The notes beneath the pieces are model-generated. The model searched no databases. It was not told the DNA's origin and saw nothing but the letters and a program-made list of their open reading frames with translations. Source: a virus. From it: a DNA stretch of 64,000 bases. Location: positions 82,269-146,268 of IMG/VR virus record IMGVR_UViG_3300036831_000148, one strand, 5' to 3'. A program made the position numbers and the translations under genes. Shown here piece by piece: positions 25,676 to 58,808 of the stretch; positions within the stretch are counted from its first letter, which is position 1; each line of letters begins with the position of its first letter.

Positions 25676-25720
25676 TGATAGCTATCACAAGTGATATCTG
25701 ATATCGCCAAACGATATCAC
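25676..25720. promoter_or_regulatory. Operator cluster of the RHH gene
   Basis: TGATAGCTATCA (25676-25687) and GTGATATC-N14-GATATCAC (25691-25720), with another GATATC between them. This AT-rich 45-bp block differs sharply from the surroundings and fits repeated RHH binding sites over a promoter. Confidence 0.65.
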
Positions 25721-25842
25721 TATAGCTCTGTGTCACCGGGCGACCACGAAGCGGGGTCAGTCCAGGGCCACCAGGACCCGTCAGCGTCCCCTCCGGGCTC
25801 CAGGCCGGCGAGCAGCCCTCCCGGGTCCTGCGGCGTAATCAC
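25720..25842 (-). CDS. Tiny Trp/Pro-rich protein, 40 aa
   Basis: MITPQDPGGLLAGLEPGGDA, then DGSWWPWTDPASWSPGD. GTG overlaps the stop of the zinc-protein gene (GTGA) and the TAG stop touches the RHH operator. Clean codon usage supports it; function unknown. Confidence 0.55.
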   Translation of the reverse strand: MITPQDPGGLLAGLEPGGDADGSWWPWTDPASWSPGDTEL

Positions 25843-43466: not shown

Positions 43467-43849
43467 CGCGTCTCCAGCCAGCAGGCAGGCCACCAGCTCT
43501 CGTAGCCGTCGTCCAGCAGCACGTGCACGCTCGCGCCGTCGGTGCTGATGAACCAGGGCACCAGGTCGCCGTCCGGCAACCAGCACGCGTGGCGCTCCGG
43601 CACGCCCGGCGTGACGATGCCGTGCTGGCCGAGCCGCCAGTGAACCGGCGTGCCGAGCCACACCGGCGCGCCGGGCGGGAACTTCGCCTCCAGGCCCGGC
43701 AGCAGGTCGCGGGTGAACGCGTCATCGATGCCAAGCTCCGCCGGCAGGGTGACGTGCGCCATCTCCGCGGCGCCGGCCTCGCCGTACCCGCCTGACGTGT
43801 GCTCGCGGCCCCCGATCAGGGTGATGACCGCCCATGTCCCGCCGTTCAT
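43463..43849 (-). CDS. Hypothetical protein, 128 aa
   Basis: ATG 43849 (MNGGTWAVITLIGGREHTSG) overlaps the upstream stop by ATGA. GAPVWLGTPVHWRLGQHGIV and ASVHVLLDDGYESWWPACWL suggest a small beta domain. No family recognised. Confidence 0.7.
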   Translation of the reverse strand: MNGGTWAVITLIGGREHTSGGYGEAGAAEMAHVTLPAELGIDDAFTRDLLPGLEAKFPPGAPVWLGTPVHWRLGQHGIVTPGVPERHACWLPDGDLVPWFISTDGASVHVLLDDGYESWWPACWLETR

Positions 43850-44286
43850 CAGGGCTCCTCCGCAGGGATCGGGTCGCAGACCTCGCACGAGCGCGACGGG
43901 CACCAGTCCGCAGACCTGGTGCAGTCCAGGCAGCCGTCCGGGTAGCGCTCGCGGTGCGCGGCCTCGCCTGCGGCCCGCCAGTCATCCCCGGCTGCCAGGT
44001 CGGGGCGCGCCTCCGTCCAGAGGGCGTGCGCCTCTTCCACGTCGGTGCGGAACCAGGTGATCCCGAACATTGCGACATGACTCACCCAGCCGGCCCGCAC
44101 GCTCTGGTAAGCGGAGTCACTGTGGTCGTACCCGAGGGACGAGATGTCAGCCGGGTCCACCCCGGCCGAGGTGCACACCGCCGCGCGGAGGTCTGCTACC
44201 GAGGTCTCAAAGTTGGCCCGCTCTACCGGGTCATCCGGACGGGCGCAGCCGGCGAGCGCGATGAACGTGACGCTGGCCGCGCTCAC
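43849..44286 (-). CDS. Hypothetical protein, 145 aa
   Basis: N-terminus MSAASVTFIALAGCARPDDP has a lipobox-like LAGC but no positive charges, so export is doubtful. C-terminal Cys cluster CLDCTRSADWCPSRSCEVCD (about 118-138) is probably zinc-binding. GTGA coupling upstream. Confidence 0.65.
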   Translation of the reverse strand: MSAASVTFIALAGCARPDDPVERANFETSVADLRAAVCTSAGVDPADISSLGYDHSDSAYQSVRAGWVSHVAMFGITWFRTDVEEAHALWTEARPDLAAGDDWRAAGEAAHRERYPDGCLDCTRSADWCPSRSCEVCDPIPAEEP

Positions 44287-44633
44287 TTCGCCGGCTTCCC
44301 GTCATCCAGCACGCACGTGGCCTCGTAGTCGTCCCACCGGCTCAGGAGCTCGGCCACGGGCACGGGGCCGTCCTCAGACTCGCGCTGCACGTAGGCGAAG
44401 AACGCCCCGCCGATCTGGGCGAGCGAGGCGGCCAGCGCGGTCAGCGCCGGCATGACGTCGTACGCGCCGTCCTCACCCTGGCTCAGGTGAGGGGACACCC
44501 GCTCCAGGTAAGGCAGCAGGACGTCTGCCGCCGAGCCGGCGGGCCCTTCGGCCTCGGAGAACTCGATTGCCTGGCGCACCAGCGCCATCGCGGCGAGCAG
44601 GGCCTCGTCCTGCGCCGGGTTTTGACCGTTCAT
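44283..44633 (-). CDS. Hypothetical helical protein, 116 aa
   Basis: MNGQNPAQDEALLAAMALVR, LTALAASLAQIGGAFFAYVQ; all-helical. First gene of the four-gene unit to 42996. Leader CGAGAGGCAGGCAAAGC. Confidence 0.75.
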   Translation of the reverse strand: MNGQNPAQDEALLAAMALVRQAIEFSEAEGPAGSAADVLLPYLERVSPHLSQGEDGAYDVMPALTALAASLAQIGGAFFAYVQRESEDGPVPVAELLSRWDDYEATCVLDDGKPAK

Positions 44634-44665
44634 GCTTTGCCTGCCTCTCGGTTGCCTGTGCGCCC

Positions 44666-44696
44666 AGCCTACCGGCTTCGCTTGACTTGTGTCAAG
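44666..44696 (-). promoter_or_regulatory. Palindrome promoter for 44633
   Basis: CTTGACACAAGTCAAG (44681-44696), spacer 18, -10 TAGGCT. It begins exactly where the U-tract of the large RNA's terminator ends. Confidence 0.8.
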
Positions 44697-44755
44697 AAAA
44701 AGGTGAGGCCCCCCGTGTGCGAAAGGCAGGCAACCAATCCACGGGGGGCCTCGCC
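44697..44755 (-). terminator. Terminator of the large RNA, loop antisense to shared leaders
   Basis: Stem 44702-44717/44740-44755 (16 bp, one G-U), minus-strand U-tract TTTTT at 44701-44697. The 22-nt loop (44739-44718) reads GATTGGTTGCCTGCCTTTCG plus CA. Its complement GCGAAAGGCAGGCAACC is the conserved mRNA leader of the element. Confidence 0.85.
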
Positions 44756-45506
44756 GCAGAGGGGACGCGCTCCGCGCCGGGCTACTCGGCTAAGTGGGCA
44801 GATCTGGCGCGCCGGGAGACGCCTCGCCCGGCGGGTTCCCCTCGCCGGCGCAGCAGGCCCGAAGGCCTGCCACGATCTTCAGTTGTCCCTGCAGCCCGCC
44901 TAAGCGGGGTAAGACGGGCTGCAGAGCCTTGCGCCCGGGTGCCTGGCCCGGGGAGCCTGTTCAGTTTTCGCAGCGGCCGGGCGCAGGACCAGTCCGGGGC
45001 CGGAACCGCCCGGCCGCCACTTCGACCCATCTGAGGGTGCACCTCGGTAGCCCGGGGTCGCGGCGGGCTACCACTCAGCTAGTCCCCGGGCCAGGTGTTT
45101 CGCTGGTCCGTAGCGGTGTCGGCGCGCCGGCCGTATTTGGTCTCAGCGCCCCTCACGCGTTCGCCAGGTACTTGACCTGGCCCGGGAAGCTAGAGGACAA
45201 CGGCCATCGGTTTCCAACCCCGGCCCGCGGAGACGCCAGGCGGCGAGCCTGACGCGGCGGAAGGCCCTGGCCTAGCAGGGTCCCGCTGCCCTCAAGTCAC
45301 TGTTCAGTTACCCGCCAGGGGCGGTATCGCTAGCGAGTCCGGCAAGCCGGGTTCTGCCGCGCTGTACCCCTCCCTGACGGGAGTCTTAGTGAGCGAGGCC
45401 CTGGGCGGAGGGGGCTGCGGCCTGCTCTGTGGCCGGTGTGCTGCCTTTCGGGCGCTCCTGGCCGGTCCCTCTCTTGCCTGCTCGCTGGCCTTCCGGCCTC
45501 GCTCAC
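44697..45506 (-). ncRNA. Large structured noncoding RNA, about 810 nt
   Basis: No credible gene on either strand between 44697 and 45547. A promoter ends at 45513 and the predicted first base (45506) is the first base of a 12-bp helix (45495-45506 with 45389-45400). Further helices: 45084-45095 with 45174-45185, CGGCCGGGCG/CGCCCGGCCG near 44963-45016, GGTAGCCCG/CGGGCTACC near 45049-45076, CTGCAGCCCG/CGGGCTGCAG near 44894-44925, and GCAGGCC-ttcg-GGCCTGC near 44846-44863. It ends in the terminator 44697-44755. Size, isolation and complexity recall giant RNAs such as GOLLD or ROOL, but I do not recognise a known class. RNase P and tmRNA signatures are absent. Confidence 0.75.
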
Positions 45507-45512
45507 AACTAC

Positions 45513-45543
45513 AGGCTAAAGGCTGGCCTTTACTCCTGTCAAG
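45513..45543 (-). promoter_or_regulatory. Promoter of the large RNA
   Basis: -35 TTGACA inside CTTGACAGGAGTAAAG (45528-45543), spacer 18, -10 TAGCCT. The palindrome is the TTTAC variant also seen at 7385, linking the RNA to the same regulon. It starts 5 nt after the stop of the ECF sigma gene. Confidence 0.8.
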
Positions 45544-45547
45544 AGAA

Positions 45548-46108
45548 TCAGCGGGGATTCTTCCGGTCCGCCAGCAGCCGCAGCGCGGGCACCGGCCCGG
45601 TCACCCTCTCCTGGGTTCCCCGCTCGCGCTGCCATGCCTGCGCAAGGCCGATGCGGGCGCGCCAGGCGAGCTGGGAGACGGCGGCCGGGCTCAGGCCCCA
45701 CTCAGTTGCCAGGCTGGTCACCGGGAAGCCCTCGACCTCCGTCAGCCACAGTACCTGGCGCCAGCGCGGGGACAGCGTGCCGAACGCCCGGCCCACCATC
45801 TCCCGCTCCTCGGCGAGTACCGCCAGGTCGCCAGCTGCCGGGGCGTGGCGGCGCGGGGCCGGGTCGGCCGCGGGCACGGTGCGCCGCCGCTCGGCCAGCC
45901 AGTCACGGGCGATGTTGCGCACCGCCGCCAGTAGGTAGGGCCGGAACGCGCCGGCCGGCCCCCCGCCTGCCCGCATCGCGGCCAGGACCCTGGTAAAGGC
46001 CTCGGCCACGATGTCGTCGGCCGCGTCCGGCGGGACCAGGGACAGCGCGGTGCGCCTCGCCGCCGTCAGGTGCTCGGTGTACAGCGACGCGTAACCGAGC
46101 TCGGGCAT
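45548..46108 (-). CDS. ECF-type RNA polymerase sigma factor
   Basis: 186 aa. Region 2: LVPPDAADDIVAEAFTRVLA, then FRPYLLAAVRNIARDWLAER (about 25-75). Region 4: LSPRWRQVLWLTEVEGFPVT, SLATEWGLSPAAVSQLAWRA (about 115-155). No adjacent anti-sigma gene. It is the last gene before the large RNA promoter and might drive a subset of element promoters; separated from the PadR gene by a terminator. Confidence 0.87.
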   Translation of the reverse strand: MPELGYASLYTEHLTAARRTALSLVPPDAADDIVAEAFTRVLAAMRAGGGPAGAFRPYLLAAVRNIARDWLAERRRTVPAADPAPRRHAPAAGDLAVLAEEREMVGRAFGTLSPRWRQVLWLTEVEGFPVTSLATEWGLSPAAVSQLAWRARIGLAQAWQRERGTQERVTGPVPALRLLADRKNPR

Positions 46109-58637: not shown

Positions 58638-58808
58638 TTACCGTCCGAGGCGGTCCAGTGCGATGACCAGCACCGCGGCCGCAACGCAGAACAGCCCGCC
58701 GAGCACGTACGCGAGGGGGGTTCCGGCCCAGGAGGCGAGGGCGACCGCCGCAATCCCGGCGAGCAGCGCCCTCAAGCGGAGAAGACGGGCTGCGGACACT
58801 GCAATCAC
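58638..58808 (-). CDS. Two-span membrane peptide, 56 aa
   Basis: GTG start: MIAVSAARLLRLRALLAGIA, AVALASWAGTPLAYVLGG, LFCVAAAVLVIALDRLGR. Two hydrophobic segments. The 230 nt between it and the GIY-YIG start hold no convincing gene. Confidence 0.6.
   Translation of the reverse strand: MIAVSAARLLRLRALLAGIAAVALASWAGTPLAYVLGGLFCVAAAVLVIALDRLGR

Follow-up and report, generated by a model that had tools for sequence, protein, structure and literature searches.

A large structured phage RNA family with a terminator loop antisense to the start-associated leader of many phage genes

Introduction

GOLLD and ROOL are long, ornate non-coding RNAs, phage-encoded or phage-associated and apparently independent, and they are defined as RNA-only multimeric nanocages (PMC12286853). 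In antisense sRNAs that act at the Shine-Dalgarno region, such as the plasmid ctRNAs, a hairpin loop is complementary to the translation initiation region. In the cluster K mycobacteriophages, many genes have a repeated leader, the start-associated sequence (SAS), over their ribosome-binding site, with an inverted-repeat promoter just upstream (SAS/ESAS; PMC3203893, PMC11373665). Four phages of subcluster K1 also carry one oppositely oriented SAS copy, away from gene starts, and Pope et al. left open whether the partner of the SAS is an RNA or a protein (PMC3203893). An antisense RNA partner for the SAS is not proposed in the literature that we searched (the cluster K ZoeJ paper lay outside this search).

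Here we describe a structured non-coding RNA of about 810 nt encoded by a large uncultivated soil phage, and compare it with these systems. The window that we analysed comprises the final 64 kb of an IMG/VR record of 146 kb, and positions given without a prefix are those of the window.

Results

A non-coding interval with its own promoter and terminator

The RNA occupies 44697..45506 on the minus strand, from a predicted +1 at 45506 to a U-run at 44701-44697, and its assignment is based on the sequence, on homologues at the same locus and on one covariance-model match per phage. A sequence-only reading of the window had proposed a structured non-coding RNA of no known class with its own promoter and terminator at this place, and had left the strand unstated; our analysis supports that proposal and places the RNA on the minus strand. 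As that reading had claimed, no normal coding frame covers the interval: the open frames have GC3 values of 0.60-0.77 vs 0.87-0.91 in the three adjoining genes. Matches in the relatives consist of short broken pieces in mixed frames, and a coding gene at 44697-45506 was rejected on these two grounds. Nor does any protein family fall within the interval. Upstream lies a gene for an ECF-like sigma factor (Sigma70_r2; 45548..46108, minus strand), which is kept beside the RNA in four relatives.

The predicted promoter of the RNA (45513..45542, minus strand) consists of TTGACA at 45542-45537, an 18-nt spacer and TAGCCT at 45518-45513, and 27 further promoters of this class occur in the window; in the relatives L006, L011 and L012 the corresponding promoter reads CTTGACACGAGTCAAG...TAnnnT. 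In L007, a 46-codon frame stands between promoter and RNA. The predicted +1 at 45506 is indeed, as previously suggested, the first base of a 12-bp helix formed on the minus strand by GTGAGCGAGGCC (45506-45495) and GGCCTCGCTCAC (45400-45389). The intrinsic terminator said to close the interval was likewise found, as a minus-strand hairpin at 44697..44755 with 16-nt arms (44755-44740 and 44717-44702), a 22-nt loop (44739-44718) and the U-run (44701-44697). This loop is unusually large: where an intergenic terminator of the window precedes a promoter, its loop measures 3-12 nt. Neither promoter nor terminator was picked up by a generic consensus scan, because the -10 element does not closely resemble TATAAT and the terminator loop exceeds the 8-nt limit of the scan. 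Elsewhere in the window, at 25690-25721, there is a perfect inverted repeat (AGTGATATC) with a 14-nt centre, followed on both strands by a T-containing tail.

Comparison with known RNA classes

No Rfam family matches the RNA, GOLLD, ROOL, OLE and HEARO included. At the gathering threshold there was no match in the 64 kb, and up to E = 5 none of these four classes was matched in the RNA interval of the window, L006 or L007. The terminator hairpin of L007 gave a weak match to ctRNA_pGA1, which at 25.5 bits is well below the cut-off of 45; all remaining sub-threshold matches were taken as chance. GOLLD has tRNA genes nearby. No tRNA was found in the window, L006, L007, L011 or L012, and tmRNA was likewise not found. 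The resemblance to GOLLD and ROOL that had been noticed earlier is thus one of size and setting. Near the 5' end of the RNA in L011 (L011:5608-5624) lies a perfect hairpin like a tRNA T-arm (GCGGGTTCGAGTCCCGC), where ARAGORN reports no tRNA.

Homologues in five further phages

Five further uncultivated phage contigs of 125-152 kb contain the RNA, at the same locus or close to it. Four of these relatives (L006, L007, L011 and L012) were found with the sigma protein, used singly and as an alignment, and each has a non-coding stretch at this place; the sixth member, L016, was found by a pattern built from the common core. The genomic place is conserved, in that five phages have the RNA beside the ECF sigma gene, and in L016 it lies upstream of a homologue of the window protein encoded at 43849-44286. 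A model of the core, R1 (108 positions), has exactly one copy per record in all six records. As the same six sequences were used to build R1, the match itself is partly by construction, and the finding is that the copy is single.

The RNA is shortest in L012 (about 0.35 kb) and longest in L016 (about 1.3 kb), and some of its modules have shifted position or are absent. One module, CCTAAGCCCAAGCyAGTAC..GTnCGGACATTGGCGG / CCTAAGCCCAAGC..GGACATTGGCGG (L006:5790-5850, L007:5790-5850), lies within the L006 core but upstream of the L007 core, and looks as if it had been relocated as one unit.

A blastn search of the RNA against phages and plasmids gave no match, so that it is absent from the annotated phage and plasmid records, and the sigma protein gave no match in phages. 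When 84,980 species genomes were scanned with a pattern, there were 25 matches, none with the flanking helix, which were taken as chance; L015 and L057-L061 lack the fold despite agreeing with the pattern, and were set aside as well. R1 found nothing in 396 Actinomycetota genomes, under stricter filters and without a positive control, and did not match Adephagia or Microbacterium phage Magritte. The latter has the nearest cultured DNA polymerase, at 33% identity; DNA polymerase patterns found no relatives.

Fold and covariation

Three domains were delineated, all on the minus strand. The 5' domain (45389..45506) is closed by the 12-bp helix GUGAGCGAGGCC/GGCCUCGCUCAC; between the window and L006, 3 of its 34 pairs are changed on both sides (z -3.5 vs column shuffles). 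The conserved core (45082..45189) comprises an outer helix CCCGGGCC../..GGCCCGGG, a CUGG/CCAG helix and a GCnUG/CACnGC helix, and holds a nearly invariant ACGGACCAG that in L011 takes the form CCGGACCAG. The 3' domain (44968..45088) combines a 10-bp covarying hairpin with a long GGCCGGG helix. An inner complementary pair that the sequence-only reading had pointed out is real, albeit one base away from where it had been placed: the partners are 45085-45096 and 45175-45186.

In the alignment of the core from six phages, 96.1% of the cells are paired, vs 87.2% after shuffling, and there are seven doubly changed pairs vs 3.0, with a covariation score of 0.264 vs 0.091 (0/500 shuffles as good). When the partner strand was slid as a control, pairing in the core fell to 28-42%. 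The n of GAACGCnTGAG covaries with the n of ACACnGCT, the pair being G-C in four phages, C-G in L011 and A-U in L012. In the 3' domain, aligned for three phages, we counted nine doubly changed pairs vs 3.4 in shuffles (0/500 as good). In core and 3' domain, none of 500 shuffles did as well on nearly all measures, and 95-96% of cells were paired vs 28-46% in the slid controls. The homologues and the covariation that a structured RNA would be expected to have are thus both found, the covariation in two domains, core and 3'.

As to the strand, the 3' domain folds with -50.6 kcal/mol on the minus and -37.0 kcal/mol on the plus strand, and it has 15 G-U cells vs 3 A-C cells. The folding z of the whole interval is -3.9 for minus and -3.5 for plus. 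By itself this z settles neither strand nor function; it is the comparative evidence, namely the single core per phage and the covariation, that does. On this evidence we regard the RNA as a new structured RNA family, conserved in six related large phages and, in most of them, equipped with its own promoter and terminator sequences.

A start-associated leader in the phage genes

Many genes of these phages have a common module that consists of a promoter (CTTGACnnnnGTCAAG-TAnnnT), a leader ending in GARRGGCAGGCA and the start codon. By analogy with the cluster K mycobacteriophages (PMC3203893) we call this leader the SAS. At 27 sites of the window, mostly on the minus strand (e.g. 28300, 31496, 41855 and 52601), the palindrome CTTGACnnnnGTCAAG lies over the -35 element, followed by TAnnnT, CAACCGArrGGCAGGCA and a start codon. 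An exact GGCrGGCA occurs within 60 nt of 19 of the 27 promoters, and several others have near-variants. Over the whole records, GARRGGCAGGCA was counted 18, 10, 16, 13 and 7 times on the gene strand of G000-G004, respectively, and 0 times in G005. It is confined to one strand per genome and, where inspected, lies nearly always directly ahead of a start codon; a reversed-pattern control gave 0. The L016 phage (L042:3408-11155) has related promoters (TTGACnCAAGTCAGG) and looser leaders of the form AGGGnAGGC, which suggests drift of the leader among these phages.

The gene immediately downstream of the RNA (44283..44633, minus strand; 116 aa, no Pfam match) has a promoter and SAS leader of its own at 44638..44695 on the minus strand, with TTGACA at 44695-44690, TAGGCT at 44671-44666 and GAGAGGCAGGCA at 44649-44638, and is a predicted target of the RNA. 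In five of the six phages, a terminator-like hairpin directly precedes a promoter and SAS leader that belong to the next gene. We therefore consider it very unlikely that the RNA, instead of being a separate transcript, serves the downstream gene as a structured 5' leader or attenuator. Such a reading draws on L016, where neither a terminator nor a separate promoter was seen ahead of the next gene, and on the late-leader-like arrangement that exists in cluster K phages.

The terminator loop is antisense to the SAS

The terminator loop (GAUUGGUUGCCUGCCUUUCGCA; 44718..44739, minus strand) is antisense to the SAS leader, exactly so at 44721-44732. In the 146-kb record this loop is the sole SAS match on the opposite (forward) strand, and a hairpin-plus-T-tail scan of the window found no second terminator loop with SAS antisense. 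In five of the six members a loop of 20-22 nt holds the SAS antisense: GCCTGCC, the antisense of the SAS core, recurs in the loops of the window, L006, L007, L011 and L012, and the stems differ. In the sixth phage (G005), where an exact SAS is missing, the RNA lacks the antisense loop too.

For the window, the duplex between loop and leaders has a mean energy of -29.7 kcal/mol vs -15.8 kcal/mol for shuffled loops (0/300 as good). Across the phages, loops paired with their own leaders have means of -22 to -30 kcal/mol, vs -14 to -18 kcal/mol when shuffled (0-5/300 as good), and the mean exact run is 8-10 nt vs about 4.9 nt. A preference of each loop for its own phage was not demonstrated, as the loops of L006, L007 and L011 pair about equally with the leaders of other phages; the match is thus to the common leader and not phage by phage.

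From these complementarities we propose, at about even odds, that the RNA acts in trans as an antisense RNA that pairs with SAS leaders in the cell and blocks their translation. The SAS overlies the ribosome-binding site in many phage mRNAs; the terminator hairpin would present its antisense in a large single-stranded loop, with the folded body serving as a stable scaffold. Pairing of loop and leader over some 8-10 contiguous bases would then block 30S binding, and one RNA would damp the whole set of SAS-led genes together, probably while it accumulates during infection. Set against the plasmid ctRNAs, the RNA would be one molecule directed at the common leader of 7-18 genes, with a body of hundreds of nucleotides.

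What speaks against this proposal is that the loop could instead pair within the RNA itself, as GCAGGCAA in the 5' domain (window and L006) is a possible partner for the loop's UUGCCUGC. GCAGG-type runs lie near the 5' end in L016 and L011 too, and such pairing would close the RNA from 5' to 3' end; no 5' partner of this kind was seen in L012. The loop might also be a decoy for a phage protein that binds the SAS leader, in keeping with the choice between RNA and protein partner left by Pope et al. (PMC3203893), but loop and leader are complementary, not copies of each other, and a protein that recognises the leader in single-stranded form would not recognise the loop. We consider a docking or decoy role of either kind unlikely.

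The antisense proposal also leaves the role of the core unexplained, and the body of about 800 nt far exceeds what an antisense loop needs. Both the core, kept in six of six phages when the loop is kept in five, and the surplus of body would be natural for an ornate RNA that acts through its three-dimensional shape, as a homo-oligomer or cage in the manner of GOLLD and ROOL, with the antisense loop minor or unrelated. Size, phage setting and elaborate conserved folds are alike, and kissing loops are typical of the quaternary contacts of GOLLD and ROOL (PMC12286853). On the other hand, the RNA shows no Rfam similarity to GOLLD, ROOL, OLE or HEARO, a length range of about 0.35-1.3 kb with moved or missing modules fits a closed symmetric cage badly, and the loop sequence is constant though its stem changes. 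This alternative is doubtful in our view. The lack of a covariance-model match, the strongly variable length and a loop antisense to phage leaders thus set the RNA apart from these two classes.

A parallel arrangement in cluster K mycobacteriophages

In Adephagia (L046:28663-28715 = 58662-58714) and Angelica (L045:28614-28666), the lone SAS in opposite orientation forms the loop of a strong hairpin. The interval that holds it is apparently non-coding; it is annotated within gp92 in Angelica and unannotated in Adephagia. The anti-SAS loop also occurs in Niklas and Amelie, and the region has matches in 177 mycobacteriophage records. In Adephagia, RNA-seq maps the late transcription start to the interval between genes 92 and 93 (PMC11373665), which is also where the anti-SAS hairpin lies. 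A repeated start-proximal leader together with a lone antisense copy in a hairpin loop thus occurs both in five of our six phages and in members of Anayavirus.

No clear anti-SAS loop was found in Shadow1, Hurricane, MacnCheese, Yuna, SirPhilip or Chris, although the SAS of Shadow1 is identical, so the parallel is not universal within cluster K. Covariation of loop and SAS could not be shown there, the SAS being identical in the three genomes compared. The two systems also differ: the cluster K SAS (GGGATAGGAGCCC) is unrelated in sequence, and the cluster K RNA is not homologous to ours (no R1 match), is smaller and is probably transcribed late. In the phages studied here, the RNA and the SAS genes share one promoter class, and hence a late role is not implied.

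Discussion

The analysis defines a new family of large structured RNAs, supported by covariation and without a counterpart in Rfam. If the antisense proposal is right, the mechanism would be antisense control at ribosome-binding sites, exerted by one RNA on many genes. It would also supply a concrete, testable partner for the SAS, whose role has been open since 2011. As the same layout of loop against leader exists in cultivable phages of Mycobacterium smegmatis, it can be tested at the bench even though the phage of the window is uncultivated.

Tentatively, and with somewhat more doubt than confidence, we suggest that a general switch of actinophages may be at work, in which a set of genes with one common ribosome-binding leader is shut down by the antisense hairpin loop of a single structured RNA. 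Two or more phage lineages would have come to it with unrelated sequences, one of them with a new giant RNA family. If true, this would be a translational switch from one RNA to many genes, and it would offer a reason for the existence of at least one giant phage RNA.
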